This document shows positions 2,701-10,788 of a stretch of DNA of 10,788 bases, piece by piece. Numbering within the stretch: the first letter of the stretch is position 1; every line of letters begins with the position of its first letter. Source of the stretch: Thermoflexales bacterium. GTDB lineage: Bacteria > Chloroflexota > Anaerolineae > S140-20. The notes beneath the pieces were generated by a model. The model was not told the origin of the DNA, made no database searches, and worked only from the letters and a program-made list of their open reading frames with translations. The position numbers were made by a program, and so were the translations under genes. Location of the stretch: NCBI GenBank assembly GCA_015484715.1, contig WFUY01000448.1, positions 1 to 10,788 on the forward strand, written 5' to 3'.

Positions 2701-3219
2701 ATGGATCAGGCCCTCGATCTCACGGCCCTGAAGCGCTACTTGGAGCGGCGGGAGGAGGTGGTGGCCGCCTACCTCTTCGGCTCCCACGCCCGGGGGGAGG
2801 CCGACACCCGCTCCGACGTGGACATCGCCCTCCTGCTCCGCCCCAACCTGCCGGACCTGGCCCACCTGGAACTGCGATTGGATGGGGAAGTCAGGGCAAC
2901 GCTGGGCGACAGGGACGTGGATGTGCTTTTCCTGAACGATGCGCCTCTGGAGGTCCAGGCCGAGGTCATCCGCACCGGTCGGCTCATCGCGGTCAACGAC
3001 GAGGCGGCCCGCGTTGACTACGAGGTCCGCACGATGAACCGTTGGTGGGACCTTCGGCCCTTCTTCGAGGCATACCAACGCACCTTCTTCCGCCGTCTCA
3101 AGGAGGAATTCAGCGATGAGCAGCGCCGCGCGTATGAGGAAGCACGTCGAGCATTTGCACGAGCGTATCGCAAGGCTCAAGATGTATCAGCACCTGCAGG
3201 AGGACATCCGCCATTTTGA
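2701..3219 (+). CDS. MNT-type nucleotidyltransferase (MntA-like antitoxin)
   Basis: This 172-residue minimal nucleotidyltransferase carries the signature GSX10DXD: Gly27-Ser28, ten residues, then Asp39-Val-Asp41. A further acidic strand, DVDVLFLN, lies at about 72-79. In this family MntA proteins AMPylate and thereby silence a HEPN-type HepT toxin. The C-terminal helical part (RTMNRWWDLRPFFEAYQRTF, about 110-129, then a charged helix) is typical of family members ending near residue 155. The last 15 residues (DVSAPAGGHPPF region) look unnatural and lie where a second ORF is read in another frame, so a shorter ancestral end or a frameshift is possible. The start has a good ribosome site (AGGAG, 2691-2695). 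No HepT with an RX4-6H C-terminal motif is recognisable next door; small overlapping ORFs follow instead. Confidence 0.8.
   Translation: MDQALDLTALKRYLERREEVVAAYLFGSHARGEADTRSDVDIALLLRPNLPDLAHLELRLDGEVRATLGDRDVDVLFLNDAPLEVQAEVIRTGRLIAVNDEAARVDYEVRTMNRWWDLRPFFEAYQRTFFRRLKEEFSDEQRRAYEEARRAFARAYRKAQDVSAPAGGHPPF
3101..3106 (+). promoter_or_regulatory. Internal ribosome binding site inside the nucleotidyltransferase gene
   Basis: AGGAGG (AAGGAGG counting the preceding A) sits 9 nt upstream of the ATG at 3116, within the nucleotidyltransferase coding sequence. It decides the start of the overlapping 55-codon ORF and is the main argument that this ORF is translated. In the nucleotidyltransferase frame the same bases encode part of a Lys-Glu-Glu helix, where GAG/GAA codons can mimic a ribosome site by chance. 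Confidence 0.6.
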
Positions 3220-3377: not shown

Positions 3378-3409
3378 CCACCCTTTCACACGCGATGGAG
3401 GGCAGAGAG

Positions 3410-4561
3410 ATGATCCGAGAAGTGGCCATCGTAGGGGTGGGATGGAGCCCCTTCCGCTCCATCACCCCCGACCTCTCGTACAAAGAGATGATGTACGAGG
3501 CTGCCGTCCGCGCCTACGAAGACGCGGGCATTGACCCCCGCCGGGACGTGGACAGTTTCGTTACCGTCGCCGAGGATTTCAACGAAGGCACCAGCATCTT
3601 CGACGAATACACGCCCGACCAGATCGGCGGGGTGCTCCGGCCCAACCACACCATCACCGGGGAGGGCATCCACGGCCTGGCGGCCGCGGTGATGCAGATC
3701 CTCACCGGCCAGTTCGACGTGGTCGTCGTCGAGGGGCACAGCAAGGCCTCCAACATCCTCACCCTCCCCCATATCCTCGCCTACGCGATGGACCCCGTCT
3801 TCAACCGCCCCCTGGCCGCCCATCCCTACTTCATCGCCGGGATGGAGATGCGGCGGTACATGGCCGAGACGGGGACGCCCCACGAAGCCTGCGCCCAGGT
3901 GGTGGTCAAGAACCGGCGCAACGCCCTCGTCAACCCCCTGGCCGGTTACGGAGCCGACCTCACCCTCGACGATGTGCTGGCCTCGGAGCCGGTGGCCGAC
4001 CCCCTCACCCGGCTGGAGTGCTCCGACCACGCCGACGGAGCCGTCGTGATGGTCCTGGCCTCGGGCGAGACGGCCCGCGCCCTCACCGACCGGCCCATCT
4101 GGGTGCGTGGGATCGGCTGGGCCAACGACACCTTCTGGCTGGAGAGCCGCCCCTGGGGCGAGGCCCGGCACGCCTCGATGGCCGCCCAGATGGCCTACCG
4201 CACGGCGGGGATCCGAAGCCCCCGAACGGAGATTGACTTCGCCGAGATAGACGACACCTTCGCCTACAAGGAACTCCAGCATCTGGAGGCGCTGGGGCTC
4301 TGCCGGCCCGGAGAGGCCGCCGCCTGGACGCTGGAGGGAGGGACCGAGCTGAGCGGTGACTTCCCCGTCAACCCCTCCGGGGGGAGCCTGGGGATGGGCC
4401 ACCTGCTGGACGGCACCGGGCTGGCCCGCGTGCTGGAGGTGGTGCTGCAACTGCGCGGGGAAGCCGGCCCCCGCCAGGTCGAAGGTGCCGAGGTCGGGCT
4501 CGCCTTCGGCTGGCGCGGCCTCCCCACCACCGGCGGCGCTGCCGTCATCCTGAGCAACTGA
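3410..4561 (+). CDS. Thiolase-fold protein 1, lacking the nucleophilic Cys (Ltp2/DitF-like)
   Basis: This is a 383-residue thiolase-superfamily protein acting on an acyl-CoA type substrate in the cytosol. Visible landmarks are the N-terminal strand EVAIVGVGWSPF, then GEGIHGLAAAV (about 84-94) where thiolases have CxSG. By alignment Gly86 occupies the Cys position. KNRRNAL lies at about 167-173, IDDTFAYKEL (280-289) corresponds to the thiolase HDAF region, and NPSGGSLGMGH (321-331) keeps the GH of the C-terminal GHP motif. The C-terminal catalytic Cys is also absent. Cys-less thiolase folds include lipid-transfer and Ltp2-type retro-aldolases that work with a DUF35 partner; two DUF35 genes lie downstream. 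The ATG at 3410 is preferred over 3395 because GGAGGG (3397-3402) sits 7 nt before it. The real substrate is unknown. A structural or CoA-binding role is possible. Confidence 0.8.
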   Translation: MIREVAIVGVGWSPFRSITPDLSYKEMMYEAAVRAYEDAGIDPRRDVDSFVTVAEDFNEGTSIFDEYTPDQIGGVLRPNHTITGEGIHGLAAAVMQILTGQFDVVVVEGHSKASNILTLPHILAYAMDPVFNRPLAAHPYFIAGMEMRRYMAETGTPHEACAQVVVKNRRNALVNPLAGYGADLTLDDVLASEPVADPLTRLECSDHADGAVVMVLASGETARALTDRPIWVRGIGWANDTFWLESRPWGEARHASMAAQMAYRTAGIRSPRTEIDFAEIDDTFAYKELQHLEALGLCRPGEAAAWTLEGGTELSGDFPVNPSGGSLGMGHLLDGTGLARVLEVVLQLRGEAGPRQVEGAEVGLAFGWRGLPTTGGAAVILSN

Positions 4562-4599
4562 CCGATTATGGATCACCACACCTTCGGAGAGGGTAACCG

Positions 4600-4872
4600 A
4601 TGAAAGCACCTCCTCTTGTGCCCACAGAAGGAGATTTTCCTGAGAAGCTCACCACGACTGACCTGCAGATGATGCTGGACGCCCTCCAGACCATCGAGGG
4701 GGCTGTCGTCACCTTGAGGCGGTTGATCGAGCAACTTCAGGAACGCCCCTCCACCGAGCCAGAAGAGCCATCCCTGTTCTCCCTCTACGGGATTTTCGCC
4801 CCCACCGAGGTGACCTGGCAAGACTTCCAGGAAGCCAAGCGTGGCTGGCTTAAAGAAATCCAGGAGATTTAG
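4600..4872 (+). CDS. Small antitoxin-like protein paired with the PIN toxin
   Basis: This 90-residue acidic, mostly helical protein lies 3 nt upstream of a PIN-domain gene, the usual order for a VapBC pair. The middle (residues about 20-50) could form an amphipathic or coiled-coil helix (LQMMLDALQTIEGAVVTLRR). The C-terminal part, SLYGIFAPTEVTWQDFQEAK (60-79) followed by a Trp-containing helix, resembles the toxin-wrapping tail of VapB-type antitoxins (LxGI...VTxEDxxEAK). I see no standard AbrB, RHH or Phd/YefM DNA-binding domain at the N terminus, so autoregulation cannot be inferred. The ATG is supported by GGAGAGGG at 4586-4593. The gene starts 38 nt after thiolase 1, so read-through from the metabolic operon is likely. 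Confidence 0.65.
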   Translation: MKAPPLVPTEGDFPEKLTTTDLQMMLDALQTIEGAVVTLRRLIEQLQERPSTEPEEPSLFSLYGIFAPTEVTWQDFQEAKRGWLKEIQEI

Positions 4873-4875
4873 AGG

Positions 4876-5265
4876 ATGGTCTACGTCCCAGATACCCATA
4901 CCTTAGTCTGGTATCTCACCGCCGATCGGCGCTTGGGTGCTCAGGCGAAGGCGGCCCTCTCCCAGGTTGACCGAGGAGAGGCCCAGGCCATCGTGCCCAT
5001 CATCGTGCTCACCGAAATCCTCGACCTGGAGGAGAAGGGACGTATCGCCATACGGTTAGAGAGCTTACTCCAGCATTTGCAGAAGCACAGCCACTACCAA
5101 ATCGTTCCGTATACCCTCCAGGTCCTCGTGGCGGTTCGTGAGGTTCGGGATGTGCCAGAGTTGCACGACCGCATTATCGTGGCAACCGCCAAGCATTATG
5201 GCGCTACAGTGCTCAGCAAGGACCCCGCCATAGCAGCATCTACGGCTGCCAAGACCATTTGGTAG
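4876..5265 (+). CDS. vapC: PIN-domain ribonuclease toxin (VapC-like)
   Basis: This 129-residue protein has a complete PIN domain. VapC toxins are Mg-dependent RNases that typically cleave tRNA or rRNA when freed from antitoxin. The expected acidic residues are Asp6 in VPDTHTLVWYL, Glu47 in VLTEILDLEEKG, Asp98 in PELHDRIIVATAKHYGA and Asp116 in LSKDPAI. The length is normal and the C-terminal fold appears intact, so it should be active. It lies 3 nt after the antitoxin-like gene and 18 nt before thiolase 2, in the same orientation, which places it inside the acyl-CoA gene cluster. RNA target unknown. Confidence 0.9.
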   Translation: MVYVPDTHTLVWYLTADRRLGAQAKAALSQVDRGEAQAIVPIIVLTEILDLEEKGRIAIRLESLLQHLQKHSHYQIVPYTLQVLVAVREVRDVPELHDRIIVATAKHYGATVLSKDPAIAASTAAKTIW

Positions 5266-5283
5266 AGCCAGGGAGGAAGCGAT

Positions 5284-6450
5284 ATGAGCCGAGACCGCGT
5301 TGCCATCGTCGGCGCGGGGATGACCAAATTCGTCCGCCGTGCCCAGGAGACCCCCAAGGAACTGGCTTGGGAGGCCGCCAGCAAAGCCTTGGAATCCTGC
5401 GAGATGACCCTCGATGACATTGACGCCGTCGTCATCGGCACGGCACCGGAGGCCTTCGACGGCGTCCATATGAAGAGCGAGTACCTCTCCGATGGGGCCG
5501 GCGGTTGGGGCAAGCCGGTCATCCGAGGTTACGTGGGCGGGGGCACCGGCGTCTTCTCCGTCATCCAGGGCTGGTACCACGTCGCCAGCGGCCTCTTCGA
5601 CACGGTGCTGGTCGTCTGCGAGGAGAAGATGTCTTCCTGCCAGCCCCACCCCCAGGGAGCGTTCCTGACCATCTTCGACCACACCCTGGAGCGCCCCTTG
5701 GGGCCCAACCTGCTGTGGATCTTCGCGCTGGAGATGAACGCCTACATGAGCCGTTACGGGCTGAACAAGCGGGACATCGCCCTCGTCTCCGTCAAGAACA
5801 AGCGCAACGCTGCCGACCACCCGGCGGCCCTCCTGGGCGATCCCAACATCACCGTGGAGGATGTGCTCAACTCGGAGGTGCTGGCCTGGCCCGTGCAGCG
5901 GCTGGACGTCAGCCCCATCAGCGACGGGGCCGTGGCCATCGTGATGGCTGCCGAGTCCGTCGCCCGCCGGGTCACCAACAAGCCCGTCTGGGTCGAAGGG
6001 GTGGGGTGGAGCCTGGACACCGCCTACTGGACCAACCGGGACCTTTCCTACCCGACCTACGTGGAGGAGGCAGCCCGGATGGCCTACAAGATGGCCGGCA
6101 TCACCGAGCCTCGCAAGCAGATCCACATCGCCGAGCCCTACGACCCCTTTGACTACAAGGAACTGCACCACCTGGAAGGGCTGATGCTCTTCGACAAGGG
6201 CAAGGCCCCGGAGGCCACCGCCCTGGGGATCACCCAGCGAGATGGAGACCTGCCCGTCTGCCCCAGCGGTGGGCTGCTGGGTGTGGGCAACCCCATCGCT
6301 GCCGCCGGCCTGATGAAGGTGGCCGAGATCTTCTGGCAGCTTCGTGGGGAGGCCGGCGACCGCCAGGTGCCCGGGCAGCCCCGGCGCGGTGTGGCCCAGG
6401 CCTGGGGCGACCTGATGCAGGTCGGAACCGTCGTGGTCTTGGGAATTTAG
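5284..6450 (+). CDS. Thiolase-fold protein 2, lacking Cys and the C-terminal His
   Basis: This 388-residue paralogue of thiolase-like protein 1 can be aligned to it almost without gaps. Shared landmarks are RVAIVGAGMTKF, KNKRNAA (171-177), YDPFDYKELHHLEGL (286-300) and the C-terminal QLRGEAGxRQV block. The nucleophile position is again glycine (VGGGTG, about 84-89, Gly86 expected). GNP at 335-337 replaces the GHP that supplies a catalytic His in thiolases. YDPF replaces HDAF and presents a Tyr that could act as acid/base, in line with Tyr-based catalysis described for Ltp2-type aldolases. No C-terminal catalytic Cys is present. A good ribosome site (GGGAGGAAG) precedes the ATG. Canonical thiolase activity is very unlikely. 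A lyase/aldolase role, or a non-catalytic half of a hetero-oligomer with protein 1, fits better. Confidence 0.8.
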   Translation: MSRDRVAIVGAGMTKFVRRAQETPKELAWEAASKALESCEMTLDDIDAVVIGTAPEAFDGVHMKSEYLSDGAGGWGKPVIRGYVGGGTGVFSVIQGWYHVASGLFDTVLVVCEEKMSSCQPHPQGAFLTIFDHTLERPLGPNLLWIFALEMNAYMSRYGLNKRDIALVSVKNKRNAADHPAALLGDPNITVEDVLNSEVLAWPVQRLDVSPISDGAVAIVMAAESVARRVTNKPVWVEGVGWSLDTAYWTNRDLSYPTYVEEAARMAYKMAGITEPRKQIHIAEPYDPFDYKELHHLEGLMLFDKGKAPEATALGITQRDGDLPVCPSGGLLGVGNPIAAAGLMKVAEIFWQLRGEAGDRQVPGQPRRGVAQAWGDLMQVGTVVVLGI

Positions 6451-6454
6451 TCGG

Positions 6455-6560
6455 GTGGTCGGGTGGTCTGGTGGTCCGGTGGTCGGGTAGCCGGAAGATC
6501 CGATGACGGGAGCGGCCGGCCGACCAAGCAACCACCCGACCAAACGACCAAGCGACCAAT
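6455..6560. repeat. Array of 8-bp repeats in inverted arrangement
   Basis: Four tandem octamers of pattern GTGGTCNG occupy 6455-6486. Five octamers of the complementary type (mostly CGACCAAN, one CAACCACC) occupy 6521-6560. The two blocks are separated by 34 nt. Since GTGGTCGG is the reverse complement of CCGACCAC, they can form a long imperfect hairpin in several registers. The array fills most of the gap between thiolase 2 and the first DUF35 gene. It ends a few bases before the DUF35 ribosome site and lacks a T-tract, so it is not a classic intrinsic terminator. It could be a protein-binding array, an mRNA processing or stability element, or slippage-prone filler. Confidence 0.75.
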
Positions 6561-6576
6561 TGCGAGGAGACAAACG

Positions 6577-7083
6577 ATGAAAGAACACGTCTACGACACC
6601 GTGTACCTGCGCAGCAAAGATTTCGAGGAGGGGCGTGTCCTCTTCGAGACCTGGGACCCGAAGGCCCGCTACGCCTGGGACGCCGGCGTCGCTATCGGGC
6701 GCTTCCTGGCGGAACTGAAGGCCGGCCGCCTGGTCGGTCGCCACTGCCCCGGCTGTCGGCGCGTGCTGATCCCTCCCCGGATGGTCTGCGAGCACTGCTT
6801 CCTGCCCACCGATGCCTGGGTGCCCCTCCAGGACACCGGCACCGTCGTCACCTACTCCCTCTGCTACATTACCTGGGATATGGTGCACCTGAAGGAGCCC
6901 CAGATCCCGGCGGTCATCGCCATAGATGGCGCATCGCCGGGGATGGGCATTATGCACCTCCTGGGCGAGGTGGACCCGGAGGCGGTGAAGATCGGAATGC
7001 GGGTGCAGGCCGTCTGGAAGCCTGCCGAGGAGCGCACCGGCGCGATCACCGACATCGCCTACTTCAAGCCGGTGGAGTCGTAG
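6577..7083 (+). CDS. DUF35 OB-fold/zinc-ribbon protein 1
   Basis: This 168-residue COG1545 (DUF35) protein is a small partner of thiolase-fold enzymes that binds acyl-CoA and couples subunits in archaeal HMG-CoA synthase complexes and in Ltp2-ChsH2 aldolase. After an N-terminal helical segment of about 50 residues, a rubredoxin-like zinc ribbon has Cys57, Cys60, Cys71 and Cys74 (CPGC...CEHC). The OB fold follows (WVPLQDTGTVVTYSLCYI to about 163), with a typical IGMRVQAVW strand. The frame opens upstream at 6463 inside the repeat array. The ATG at 6577 is chosen because it follows GAGGAG (6564-6569) and matches the family N terminus. It is probably a partner for one or both upstream thiolase-fold proteins. 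Confidence 0.88.
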   Translation: MKEHVYDTVYLRSKDFEEGRVLFETWDPKARYAWDAGVAIGRFLAELKAGRLVGRHCPGCRRVLIPPRMVCEHCFLPTDAWVPLQDTGTVVTYSLCYITWDMVHLKEPQIPAVIAIDGASPGMGIMHLLGEVDPEAVKIGMRVQAVWKPAEERTGAITDIAYFKPVES

Positions 7084-7124
7084 GTTCGCCGCCCGTCGAG
7101 TACAACAGTGCTGAAGGAGGTACG

Positions 7125-7604
7125 ATGGCCCTGATAGAGCGCGTTACCCGGCTGGATCAGACGAAAGCCTGGCTCGGCGAAATCCCCATCCAGAGCCGCT
7201 ACACCGTGGGCATCGCCGGCGAGCGCTTCTTCCGCGAGATCCAGGAGCATGGACGATTCCTGGGCACCCGCTGCCCGGAATGCGACCTCATCTACGTGCC
7301 GCCTCGCCTCTACTGCGAAGCGTGCTTCGCCCACCTGGAGGAGTGGGTAGAGGTGCCCACCACCGGTTACGTCTACACCTACACCGTCGTCCACCAGGAC
7401 CTGGACGGGGAGCCCCTGCCGGAGCCCCGCCTCCTCGCCTTCATCCAGTTGGACGGCACCGACGGCGGGCTGGTCCACTTCCTGGGCGACGTGGAGCCGG
7501 ACCAGGTCCGTCTGGGGATGCGGGTGGAGGCGGTCTTCAAGGAGAAAGCTGAACGTCGGGGTAGCATCCTGGACATCGTCCATTTCCGTCCGGTGAAGGG
7601 ATAA
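7125..7604 (+). CDS. DUF35 OB-fold/zinc-ribbon protein 2
   Basis: This second DUF35 protein has 159 residues. The zinc ribbon is Cys50, Cys53, Cys64 and Cys67 (CPEC...CEAC). The OB fold spans about 70-155 (WVEVPTTGYVYTYTVVH, then LGMRVEAVFKE and a closing IVHFRP strand). The N-terminal region differs from that of DUF35 protein 1, as expected if each paralogue docks on a different thiolase-fold partner. The ribosome site AAGGAGG (7114-7120) is perfect, 4 nt before the ATG, suggesting strong translation. Two thiolase-fold genes followed by two DUF35 genes argue for two matched pairs or one four-subunit complex. Confidence 0.88.
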   Translation: MALIERVTRLDQTKAWLGEIPIQSRYTVGIAGERFFREIQEHGRFLGTRCPECDLIYVPPRLYCEACFAHLEEWVEVPTTGYVYTYTVVHQDLDGEPLPEPRLLAFIQLDGTDGGLVHFLGDVEPDQVRLGMRVEAVFKEKAERRGSILDIVHFRPVKG

Positions 7605-7621
7605 GCCGAAAGAGCACGCTT

Positions 7622-7653
7622 GGGTGCGACGCGCCGTCAGGTGCGTCGCACCC
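7622..7653. repeat. Perfect 11-bp inverted repeat (hairpin) between DUF35-2 and DUF4230 genes
   Basis: GGGTGCGACGC (7622-7632) is the exact reverse complement of GCGTCGCACCC (7643-7653), with a 10-nt loop. There is no T-run after it, so it is not a standard intrinsic terminator. The core CGTCGCACCC also occurs at 53-62. It could be a dispersed intergenic palindrome, or a hairpin that limits read-through and protects the upstream mRNA 3' end. Confidence 0.7.
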
Positions 7654-7676
7654 GGATCACCGCAAGGAGGGAGGGG

Positions 7677-8357
7677 ATGAGTGAAACGTCAGCCACCCGC
7701 CGTAGCAAGTGGCTAGCTGCCATTGGATACATCGTCCTGATCGCTTTCCTCGTCGGTTCCATCTCATTCACCTATCGAGCCTACAGAACGATCCAGGGGA
7801 TCGCCAATCTGCCCAACCAGGTCGAGCGAACTGTCAAAGGGGCACTGGCTCAGCCCACCCCCACGGTGACCGTGCTGCCGCCGGCCATTGACCAACTCCG
7901 CCCTCTGGCCCGATTGCAGACCGAAGCCTACTTCCTCTCCACGGTTGTGGATGTCACCATCCCCCGAGGGTTGCTGGAAATCTGGCCCGATGACTACCTG
8001 CTCCTGGTCGCCTGCGGCAAGGTGACGGCTGGCGTGGACCTCAAGAAGCTGACCGAGGATGACGTCCGGGTCAACAACGGCACCGTCATCATCCGCCTGC
8101 CGCCAGCCGAGATCTTCGATGTCTTCCTCTTCGAGGATCGCGATTGCACCTATGTCTACCGACGTAAGGAAGCCCCCCTCGTCTCCCCCAACGAGGTCAT
8201 TGAGAGCGAGGCCCGCCAGCAGGCCGTGGAGAGCTTCCGCCAGACCGCCCTGGATAACGGCATCCTGGAGCGGGCCCAGCGCAACGCCGAGCAGGAGATC
8301 CGCCGGCTGCTTCAGCTCGTCGGCTACGACCAGGTCGAGTTCGTCACCAGCGAGTGA
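7677..8357 (+). CDS. DUF4230 membrane-anchored protein
   Basis: This 226-residue protein has one N-terminal transmembrane helix (about 12-33, WLAAIGYIVLIAFLVGSISF) and a soluble domain that should face outside. The domain matches the DUF4230 pattern: LLLVACGKVTAGVDLKKL (108-125), then VIIRLPPAEIFDV (137-149), and a C-terminal helix of the type ALDNGILERAQRNAEQEI leading to LLQLVGYDQVEF. Family function is unknown. A Pro/Thr-rich linker lies at about 59-70. The frame opens at 7620, but the ATG at 7677 is chosen because AAGGAGGGAGGGG stands just before it and the upstream residues are encoded by the hairpin repeat. An intrinsic terminator follows directly, so this gene closes the transcription unit. 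Confidence 0.82.
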   Translation: MSETSATRRSKWLAAIGYIVLIAFLVGSISFTYRAYRTIQGIANLPNQVERTVKGALAQPTPTVTVLPPAIDQLRPLARLQTEAYFLSTVVDVTIPRGLLEIWPDDYLLLVACGKVTAGVDLKKLTEDDVRVNNGTVIIRLPPAEIFDVFLFEDRDCTYVYRRKEAPLVSPNEVIESEARQQAVESFRQTALDNGILERAQRNAEQEIRRLLQLVGYDQVEFVTSE

Positions 8358-8428: not shown

Positions 8429-8456
8429 TTAACATTTCCTTTATGAGGGTTAAAAC
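8429..8456 (+). promoter_or_regulatory. Candidate promoter for the secreted surface protein
   Basis: TTAACA (8429-8434, 5 of 6 matches to the -35 consensus) and TAAAAC (8451-8456, 4 of 6 to -10) are separated by 16 bp. They lie in a locally AT-rich patch between the terminator and the ATG at 8524. The start codon has only a modest ribosome site, GGGAG at 8507-8511, 12 nt away. A promoter is expected here because a terminator lies directly upstream, but the exact boxes are uncertain. Confidence 0.4.
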
Positions 8457-8523
8457 GGGAAGTGATAGATTGGAATGGGGGCAGTCGGTCTGTCGAAAAT
8501 CACTTTGGGAGCGTGATACGGCG

Positions 8524-10788
8524 ATGAAAAAGGGATACCGAACTCTAGCGATCGTAACGATACTCTTGCTGCTCACTGTGCCCGTTGCCTGGGCCGATGG
8601 CGAGACCGGCACAGTGTCCGGGTGGAAGCCCGGGGCGATGGTTGAAGGCACGCTTAACGGCAGTCCGTGGAGCGGGTGGGGCGGAACCATCTACATGGAC
8701 CTGACCAATGGCCCCACCGTCCCCGTCTTCTGCACCGATATGCTCCACCATGTCGGCGTGGGGGACACCTTCGTCGCCAGCGACCAGGAGATGGACTGCC
8801 GGGTCAAGTGGCTGCTGATCCACTACCCGCCTCGTTCCAACAACTACACACCCTGGCCCGATGGGGCTCCCGGCACCCTGAGCAATCGGAACCAAGAGAT
8901 GGCAGCCCGTCAGGCGGCCGTTTGGTACTTCTCCGATGGCTTCCAGCCGGACCCCAACACCACCATCGGCCAGCGAGCCTGGGAGATCATCCAGGCGGTT
9001 CCGGCCAATGCCTGCGCCGCTGATGCGCCCAACATCGTCATCACCCCGGCCAGCACCGTCAACCCCGTTGGGGCCAGCCAAACCTTCACCGTCACCGTCA
9101 CCCAAGGTGGGACGCCGGTGGCCGGCCGCCAGGTCACCTTGGCCACCAGCCAGGGAACTCTCTCCACGGATGTAGTCACCACCGATGCCAACGGAGAGGC
9201 GACCTTCACCCTCAGCCTGGGCATGGCGGGGACCGCCCACATCACCGCCTCGGCCACCCTCTCCCTCCCTGTGGGAACCGTCTTTGTGGGGGTGGACACC
9301 AACAAGCAGAAGCTGGTCCTGGGTGAGGAGAGCAGCGGCCTGGTCTACGGCTACGCCACCGGCACCTGGACGGGCAACGGCTCCATCACAGCCCTCAGCT
9401 TCGACGACTACAACATGAACGGGGTCCACGATGAGGGAGAGCCGGCACTGGCCGGCTGGACGATCCGCCTCTACCGAAATGGTGCCTTCATCGCCCAGCA
9501 GACCACCGACGCCAACGGCCAGGTCACCTTCAGCGGCCTCAACGGCACCTACACCGTCGTCGAAGTGCTCCAAAGCGGCTGGTACTCCACCACGGCCACA
9601 GCCCAGACCGTCACGGTGAACAACGACACCCGGTCCGTTGGCTTCGGCCAGGTGAAGCTGCCCGTCATCATCGGGCGGACCTTCCAGGACGATGATCTGG
9701 ACGGCACCTGGGACGCCGGCGAAGCGCCGCTGGCCGGCTGGGAACTCCAGCTCTTCCGCGACGACGGTTCCGCCGTCGTGGGGATGAAGGGGGTGACCGA
9801 TGACCAGGGACGGGTCGTCTTCAGTTCTGATCCCAACCGCGATCCGCCAGACCTAACCGCCGGCACCTACTACGTCCAGGAGACGCTCCAGAGCGGCTGG
9901 TACGCCACCACCGGCATCTCCGGAACCGTGACGGTGGGCTCCGGGGATGTTAAAGAGGTGGCGTTGGGCAACCTTCGGCCCCAGCCGGCGCTGGCCCTCA
10001 GCAAGCTCGGACCGGCCCAGGCTCACGCCGGGGAGACCATCACCTACCACTTCACCGTCACCAACACCGGCAACGTTCCGCTGCAGAACGTGCAGGTCAG
10101 CGACCCCCTGCTGGGCGGCGTGATCGCCGATTGCTCGACCGGCAGCCTGGCCGTCGGCGAGGCTCGCTCCTGCAGCGCCAGCTACGCGATCCCGACCCAG
10201 GCTCCGGACCCCTTGCCCAACACGGCCACGGCCACCGCCACCGAGTCGCTGCTGGGGCAGGCGACCTCTGTCAGCGCCACGCACACGGTGGACCTGCTCC
10301 ACCCCGCCCTGGATCTCCAGGCCGGCGGTCCGGCCCATGCCTATCCCGGGGAGACACTGACCCTCACCGCGGTCATTACCAACACCGGTGACGCCCCGCT
10401 GGAGCAGATCACCGTGGATGCCGGTTTCACCATCACCTGCCCCTCCACGACGCTGGATCCCGGCGCGACGGTGACCTGCAGCGGCAGCACCGTAGCCGGT
10501 CAGGCGAACGTCATCACCTTCACCATGACGGCCTCCGGCAGCGACAGCGTGGGTGGTCAGGCCAGTGCGCAGGACCAGGTCGTCGTCTCCATTGACGCCG
10601 ACGGCGATGGGATCCCCGATCTGGATGAGGGCACCGGTGACGCCGACAACGACGGCACCCCCAACTACCTGGATACCGACGCCGACGGTGACGGCATCGC
10701 CGACGGCACCGAGGGCACCGGCGACGCCGACAACGACGGGACGCCCAACTACCTGGACGCCGATTCCGACGGCGACGGCATCGCCGAC
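8524..10788 (+). CDS. Large secreted thioester-domain adhesin-like protein (3' end beyond the window)
   Basis: The frame is open from ATG 8524 to the last base (755 codons), with no stop. A signal peptide covers 1-24, with likely cleavage after VAWA. Residues about 36-165 look like a thioester (TQXA-type) domain: Cys70 in PVFCTDM and Gln130 in [13 protein letters not shown] could form the internal Cys-Gln bond used by Gram-positive adhesins for covalent attachment. Next is an invasin-type Ig domain (169-247, [11 protein letters not shown]...[11 protein letters not shown]). Two SdrD-B-like domains (about 291-370 and 384-483) share [15 protein letters not shown] motifs. Two DUF11-like domains follow (489-590 and 594-689, [20 protein letters not shown]). 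Acidic DxDxDG repeats begin at 691. Such proteins are exported and act in adhesion or surface structure. The C-terminal anchor is not in view. The thioester call is by motif only, with Arg instead of Thr before the Gln. Confidence 0.85.
10594..10788 (+). repeat. 84-bp tandem repeats encoding 28-residue calcium-type repeats
   Basis: Two full units (10594-10677 and 10678-10761) and part of a third (10762-10788) encode DADGDGIxD...[16 protein letters not shown]. These resemble thrombospondin type-3 DxDxDGxxD repeats, which bind calcium and form rigid stalks. The units are similar at DNA level but differ at several synonymous sites, so they are not freshly duplicated. The array runs off the window edge, so the copy number is unknown. 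Confidence 0.9.

Follow-up and report, generated by a model that had tools for sequence, protein, structure and literature searches.

Two cysteine-less thiolase-fold proteins and two DUF35 partners form a conserved four-gene unit, a candidate acyl-CoA carbon-carbon lyase

We describe a four-gene unit of a Thermoflexales bacterium (Chloroflexota; contig WFUY01000448.1) that encodes two thiolase-fold proteins without the nucleophilic cysteine and two DUF35 proteins. The window, meaning the whole stretch of DNA analysed, is the complete contig of 10,788 bases, from a genome of 588 contigs with an estimated completeness of 70.6%. The two thiolase-fold genes, T1 (3395-4561) and T2 (5284-6450), lie on the + strand and are followed on that strand by DUF35-1 (6577-7083) and DUF35-2 (7125-7604), an arrangement already recognised in the original prediction, which was made from the DNA letters of the window. 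For T1, an ATG at 3410 preceded by GGAGGGCAGAG is the likelier start; the residue numbers given here are counted from 3395.

Both thiolase-fold proteins are full length, at 388 amino acids each. Their single-chain AlphaFold2 models are confident (predicted local distance difference test, 92.1 for T2 and 91.9 for T1; predicted template modelling score, 0.93) and match solved thiolases in structure comparison, and the Pfam domain Thiolase_C_1 is found in T1 (5e-31) and T2 (1.6e-28). T2 lies above the cut-off of the NCBIfam family NF004721 (PRK06065; 653.5 vs 455 bits), and T1 matches NF004722 (PRK06066) best, at 485.3 bits, under its cut-off of 516. Both families are titled only 'thiolase domain-containing protein', with no function stated. 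In the open-licence literature searched, we found no description of the four-gene unit, and PRK06065, PRK06066, PRK08313 and PRK07937 are named nowhere.

To describe the active sites we aligned T1 and T2 with chains of Ltp2, Sal and several thiolases, in a register that was checked by the Ltp2 numbering, which came out correct (YDHF at 294, second tyrosine at 344). In the nucleophile column, 6esq, 7yvy and BbsB have Cys, T1 has Thr88, and Gly is common to Ltp2, Sal and T2 (Gly86). The earlier claim of a glycine in this position in both proteins thus stands for T2, where Gly86 is present in 80 of the 80 aligned proteins, and does not stand for T1 in the alignment; only when T1 is registered by where the helix begins in both models does the position fall on Gly89 (Gly in 67 and Ala in 3 of 70 orthologues). 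Residue 88 itself varies among these 70 orthologues (Thr 23, Ala 19, Pro 9, Gly 8, Ser 7, Cys 4), and there is no Cys among residues 80-95 of T1. Both proteins also lack the C-terminal cysteine of thiolases, as predicted, since their last Cys is residue 303 in T1 and 326 in T2; the latter, just ahead of the GHP-like loop, is Cys in 69 of 80 T2 proteins and Thr or Ser in the other 11. At the HDCF motif, Ltp2 has YDHF, Sal YDCY, T2 YDPF and T1 DDTF, and at the histidine of the GHP motif Ltp2 has Tyr344, T2 Asn336 and T1 His336. Tyr286 and Asn336 of T2 are each found in 80 of 80 proteins, in agreement with the asparagine first noticed in the window. The histidine that T1 was said to keep is present in the window protein and in 49 of 70 orthologues only (Asn in 11, Tyr in 5, Asp in 3, others in the rest), and Asp286 and Asp287 are kept in 69 and 70 of the 70. 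Neither T2 nor T1 shows the combination of nucleophilic Cys and GHP His expected of a thiolase. By these columns, the T2 site is conserved in an altered form, and the T1 site drifts around a fixed Asp-Asp. Conservation of the T2 motif is partly selected, as YDPFDYK, present in 79 of 80 T2 proteins, was one of the two patterns of the scan that found them; the other pattern is present in 54 of 80, 53 of which carry both, and the 15 T2 proteins that were found through T1 and not by pattern all have YDPF. Substitution of the nucleophile is also seen in a thiolase-like protein of Sulfolobus tokodaii (ST0096; Protein Data Bank 4yzo), which has Ser in this column and HDMA in place of HDCF.

The two partners are DUF35 proteins, with the zf-ChsH2 and OB_ChsH2_C domains both over the Pfam gathering score in DUF35-1 (scanned on a longer frame from 6463) and in DUF35-2 (4e-9 and 2e-18, respectively). 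Each combines a zinc ribbon of the CxxC...CxxC type with an OB fold, and the four ribbon cysteines are kept in 76 of 76 DUF35-1 and 72 of 75 DUF35-2 proteins. Contact between T2 and DUF35-1 is directly supported, because the two are fused in four loci (L115, L124, L092 and L125) into a single open frame that contains both sets of Pfam domains, DUF35-2 remaining separate downstream. An imperfect inverted repeat of an 8-base unit (GTCGGGTG-like) was noticed between T2 and DUF35-1 in the window (6447-6559), and similar-looking translations were spotted by eye in further loci of Chloroflexota.

The four genes form a real unit, beyond chance. Among 60 genomes of the same class searched with T1 and counted at 540 bits or more, 15, the source genome included, have T1, always accompanied by T2 on its contig. 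One more genome (G053), with T1 fragments only (61% over residues 6-93, with a stop), was left out. Within the phylum, NF004721 was matched at E <=1e-100 in 8 of 301 genomes, and NF004721 and NF004722 were both over cut-off in Sulfolobus acidocaldarius, alone among 14 control genomes. A scan of named genomes with 15 aligned T2 proteins gave 493 confirmed stretches, of which the best 80 were studied, and its counts therefore describe the T2-like end of the family. These 80 are mainly from Chloroflexota (Thermoflexus, Anaerolineales), with others from records named Acidobacteriota, WOR-3, Actinobacteria, Symbiobacterium and Candidatus Nitrosymbiomonas; most are metagenome bins, some perhaps misplaced, an example being L080, an Acidobacteriota record by name that the tree places with Thermoflexus. 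Together with the window they make up 81 loci, from which L031-L044 were left out, being partly from the same genomes as L047-L126. By tblastn, T1 is present in 75 of the 81, T2 in 81, DUF35-1 in 78, DUF35-2 in 76 and all four in 70. An earlier count based on open reading frames (ORFs) gave 71 for T1, 76 and 75 for the DUF35 genes and 64 for all four; the residue counts above use its full-length rows (70 T1 and 80 T2). In each of the 11 incomplete loci the absent gene would fall beyond the end of the contig: T1 is missing from six contigs on which T2 starts 1-266 bases from the end, and one or both DUF35 genes from five that end soon after T2 or DUF35-1. T1 lies upstream of T2 on the same strand in the 71 loci with both by the ORF count, in some of which insertions of as much as 1,967 bases separate them.

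Of 11 local proteins compared across 19 loci that share a gene set, T2 is the best conserved, and in 12 genomes from several phyla it is 77-80% identical to that of the window. Over 171 pairs, the median pairwise identity is 81.7% for T2, 66.1% for T1, 63.2% for DUF35-1, 60.4% for FabG, 57.6% for NusB, 53.4% for DUF35-2, 46.7% for Asp23 and 44.5% for TatC; medians over fewer pairs are 72.0% for a P-loop protein (21 pairs), 64.7% for acyl-CoA dehydrogenase (21) and 51.2% for FabD (105). T2 is probably important in uncultured anaerobes and thermophiles, being more conserved than the housekeeping neighbours measured.

Placement of the two proteins in the Ltp2 clade had been offered as a mark of support for a lyase, and here the original prediction did not hold. 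In a tree of 59 rows, T1 and T2 form one clade each (100/100), and a branch with 100/99 support separates T1, T2, a Tsukamurella pair and a Rhodococcus protein from 18 other rows, which comprise the Cys-bearing thiolases and a group of Ltp2, IpfD, Sal and 4u4e; a 41-row tree repeats the split. In approximately unbiased (AU) tests, for which the rows of the Ltp2 group were picked after the tree had been viewed, constraining T2 into this group cost 43.8 log units (p-AU 0.006) and constraining T1 and T2 together 28.3 (p-AU 0.038). The trees are unrooted and the first Tsukamurella protein (Tsuk_ThA) sits on a very long branch, and the grouping of T1 and T2 with the actinobacterial pair is less secure than their split from Ltp2. 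T1 and T2 as closest kin, and T2 with the second actinobacterial protein (ThB), gave p-AU 0.39 and 0.23, respectively.

The unit is a variant of known enzymes that combine DUF35 with a thiolase fold. The nearest annotated analogue that we found is on a Tsukamurella plasmid (L129, 1984-5161), where a double DUF35 gene, with two OB stretches and one zinc ribbon over threshold, is followed by two thiolase-fold genes, with transport and esterase genes nearby. As in the window, two adjacent Cys-less thiolase-fold genes go with two DUF35 modules, and the YDPF and GNP of T2 correspond to YVPF and SNP in the larger actinobacterial subunit. In contrast to the window, the DUF35 modules are fused to each other. 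The Tsukamurella proteins belong to NF005924 (PRK07937; 593 bits, cut-off 419) and NF006180 (PRK08313; 734 bits, cut-off 514), whereas T1 (113 and 203 bits) and T2 (95 and 287 bits) lie far under both cut-offs. From gene order and family, the pair is probably of the Ltp4/Ltp3 type. Rv3521 is presumably a DUF35 protein. It adjoins ltp4 (Rv3522) and ltp3 (Rv3523) (PMC6429209; this and the other papers cited are drawn on for parts of their text). According to a review, Ltp3-Ltp4 is a heteromeric aldol-lyase, and the side-chain branch that it splits has first been carboxylated and hydrated (PMC6678751); both proteins are termed aldol lyases elsewhere (PMC6593523). In one strain, mutants deleted for ltp3 or ltp4 still made the product studied, a different bond being concerned (PMC10398937). 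A further difference from the unit described here is the reported substrate of Ltp3-Ltp4, a sterol side chain branched at C24 (PMC6678751, PMC6593523).

The steroid aldolase Ltp2-ChsH2 (6ok1) shares with T2 the thiolase fold, the glycine in the nucleophile column, the DUF35 partner and a tyrosine (Tyr294, T2 Tyr286). It differs in Tyr344, which is Asn336 in T2, from T1 in both tyrosines (Asp286 and His336), and in its separate clade; we also take it to have one thiolase-fold subunit and not two paralogues. The bile acid aldolase Sal-Shy (9myr) likewise has Gly in the nucleophile column, Tyr302 at T2 Tyr286 and Gln352 in the column of T2 Asn336. Unlike the window proteins, it has Cys304 where T2 has Pro288, a DUF35 domain fused to a hydratase and a Sal dimer in the core, and it also falls in a separate clade. 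The catalytic pair of TcLtp2 is Tyr294 and Tyr344; in CtSal, whose Gln352 lies opposite Ltp2 Tyr344, Tyr302 and Cys304 are both essential, Y302F is inactive, and the enzyme, with Gly in the nucleophile column, is incapable of thiolytic cleavage (PMC12329534). A Cys-less thiolase-fold gene also lies beside an OB-fold (DUF35-type) gene on the ibuprofen plasmid pIBU218 of Rhizorhabdus wittichii (L127). From the plasmid and the gene order we infer that this lipid-transfer gene is ipfD, ipfDE being credited with the release of propionyl-CoA (PMC9195938); in contrast to the window, there is a single thiolase-fold gene, in the Ltp2 clade and over the NF005892 cut-off. The archaeal complex of thiolase, 3-hydroxy-3-methylglutaryl-CoA (HMG-CoA) synthase and DUF35 differs in that its thiolase has the nucleophilic Cys and the HDCF and GH motifs. 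As first noted, no HMG-CoA synthase is in view, none of the ten window proteins scanned with Pfam and NCBIfam matching a model for it.

Taken together, we tentatively favour, at somewhat less than an even chance, the reading that T1, T2, DUF35-1 and DUF35-2 make up a heteromeric acyl-CoA carbon-carbon lyase, or an enzyme of the reverse reaction, with T2 as the catalytic subunit and T1 as its partner. T2 would be gripped by DUF35-1, and T1, a diverged subunit probably gripped by DUF35-2, would complete a thiolase-type dimer. Lacking the nucleophilic Cys, such a complex should not perform thiolysis. Its most likely reaction would be the retro-aldol cleavage of a beta-hydroxyacyl-CoA, or bond formation in reverse, which can fairly be proposed because T2 has Gly in the nucleophile column, as does CtSal, and keeps the tyrosine common to Ltp2 and Sal. 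Tyr286 of T2 would act on the beta-hydroxyl, and the thioester enolate would be held by Asn336 together with main-chain amides of the glycine loop. The likeliest substrates would be beta-hydroxyacyl-CoAs, branched or tertiary, on which ordinary beta-oxidation stalls. An acyl-CoA lyase had been put forward from the start, and it remains plausible and the best guess, with the nucleophile gone, DUF35 conserved and the T2 tyrosine catalytic in Ltp2 and Sal. The division of labour that had been suggested between the paralogues also fits the invariant T2 site, the drifting T1 site and the T2-DUF35-1 fusions. A more far-reaching form of the proposal is doubtful, if worth stating: that the unit represents an undescribed, deeply conserved family of acyl-CoA carbon-carbon lyases or ligases, found across several phyla of bacteria and in one Sulfolobus or more. 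Its site would have one tyrosine (Tyr286/Asn336) and be neither the Ltp2 nor the Sal dyad, and its obligate hetero-complex would join two halves, T2 with DUF35-1 as the catalytic one and T1 with DUF35-2 as one that has lost catalysis. Sulfolobus acidocaldarius saci_2232/2233, two consecutive acetyl-CoA acetyltransferases, are upregulated on nutrient excess, as are the neighbouring saci_2234, an acyl-CoA dehydrogenase, and saci_2235, an acyl-CoA synthetase (PMC11486757). Our guess is that the former two could be the Sulfolobus T1 and T2, the family matches in that genome carrying no gene position.

Several observations weigh against a lyase. The main gap is that no partner for the enolate proton was recognised in T2, since Tyr344 of Ltp2 has become Asn336 and Cys304 of Sal has become Pro288. 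Membership of T1 and T2 in the Ltp2 clade is rejected by the trees and AU tests. No hydratase was identified among the recurrent neighbour clusters of the 81 loci, and the listed loci named outside Chloroflexota have no recurring metabolic neighbour. Additionally, all 16 T1/T2 genomes examined have PF02803 (Thiolase_C), PF02737 and PF00441 over cut-off, and 15 of the 16 have PF00378; with Thiolase_C already present throughout, there is no evident need for a further lyase. Among the 60 genomes, neither acyl-CoA dehydrogenase (15/15 with T1 vs 37/45 without; Fisher p 0.18) nor HMG-CoA lyase (0/15 vs 4/45; p 0.56) is significantly associated with T1.

An enzyme working in the forming direction is unlikely. 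It would be a condensing enzyme, non-covalent and either aldol-type or decarboxylative, that supplies lipid or polyketide synthesis and resembles in architecture the PhlABC acyltransferase, which has two thiolase-superfamily subunits and DUF35. In Chloroflexota, the unit is often downstream of fabD, fabG, asp23, nusB, tatC and a P-loop gene. However, the fab genes occur only in loci named Chloroflexota and along with NusB, Asp23 and TatC, so this neighbourhood may be mere synteny. Moreover, acyl transfer of the PhlC type depends on a Cys, and T2 has Gly in its place.

Rather unlikely, too, is an activity like that of HMG-CoA lyase, in which a tertiary 3-hydroxyglutaryl-CoA (HMG-CoA or a homologue) would be split into acetyl-CoA and a keto acid in leucine or isoprenoid breakdown. 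CoA-transferase subunits, each in 10 of 81 loci, have glutaconate CoA-transferase as their closest solved relative (alpha 1.6e-35, beta 5e-54). Their next-closest relatives are entries of the same family (5mzw), which we take to be AibAB of Myxococcus xanthus. Ltp3-Ltp4, which acts after branch carboxylation and hydration, offers an analogous type of substrate (PMC6678751). Classical HMG-CoA lyase is found in none of the 15 genomes with T1, but it is also absent from 41 of the 45 without, which makes the absence uninformative, and no carboxylase was recognised among the recurrent neighbours.

Two further explanations are improbable to a similar degree. One is a decarboxylase of the malonyl-CoA type or a hydrolase of acyl-CoA, an activity detected weakly for TbSLP, the Cys-less SCP2-thiolase-like protein of Trypanosoma brucei; the rate of TbSLP is very low, the Sal authors propose that it is an aldolase (PMC12329534), and we found no specific residue match beyond the fold. 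The other is a non-catalytic acyl-CoA-binding scaffold or regulator made of two pseudo-thiolases, in keeping with the loss of the thiolase Cys and His in T2 and of the Cys in T1, and with the drift of the T1 active-site columns. It sits poorly with a T2 site that is invariant at 77-80% identity between phyla and constrained beyond FabG or NusB, which is unexpected for a scaffold. Finally, an ordinary thiolase with its Cys elsewhere in the site is very improbable: T2 Cys326 is at neither known Cys position and replaced in 11 of 80 proteins, and T1 Cys88, found in 4 of 70 orthologues, is absent from 66.

Two other roles were considered and rejected. A substitute for a missing thiolase is ruled out by the strong PF02803 matches in all 16 T1/T2 genomes, and there is no signal for replacement of HMG-CoA lyase in the genome counts given above.

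Relatives of these proteins are annotated as acetyl-CoA acetyltransferases and are easily taken for beta-oxidation thiolases in metabolism reconstructed from metagenomes, which is very probably wrong for this family. If the proposed lyase is correct, a solved mechanism would give a third solution to carbon-carbon cleavage on the thiolase fold, and would clarify how labour is split between paired thiolase-fold subunits that work with DUF35, as in Ltp3-Ltp4 and PhlABC.

Regarding neighbouring genes in the 81 loci, an acyl-CoA dehydrogenase is present in 26, mostly downstream of the unit within the locus stretches, and the host genome has beta-oxidation genes elsewhere. A CitE-like lyase is present in seven loci, immediately upstream of T1 in five (L078, L087, L093, L105 and L107); its L093 copy scores 235 bits to citE, for which the cut-off is 443. 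The P-loop-like protein at 302-1618 of the window (+ strand, as are all genes below), without a Pfam or NCBIfam match over cut-off, has relatives that make up the P-loop cluster of 10 loci. It is followed by an alpha/beta hydrolase (1593-2657) and an MntA-type nucleotidyltransferase (2701-3219; NF047752, 93 bits, cut-off 60), for which no HepT-type partner was matched among the ten window proteins scanned.

Between T1 and T2, and outside the conserved unit, lie two genes that the original prediction did not mention: a small ORF of 90 amino acids (4600-4872), a possible antitoxin with no match in the Pfam and NCBIfam scans, and a PIN-domain protein (4876-5265; Pfam PIN 4.5e-11), VapC-like by position, whose cluster is present in 7 of 81 loci, the window counted. 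Together they have a VapBC-like arrangement (4600-5265). Downstream of DUF35-2, a DUF4230 protein (7620-8357) is followed by the first part of a large, open-ended repeat protein (8443-10788). The latter reads as a surface protein, with DxDxDG-type repeats and others that look DUF11/SdrD-like. In two other loci (L032, 2666-3960; L034, 7340-8661), T2 is separated from the DUF35 genes by what look, by eye, like an asparaginase/isoaspartyl-peptidase gene and a gene for a small membrane-type protein.

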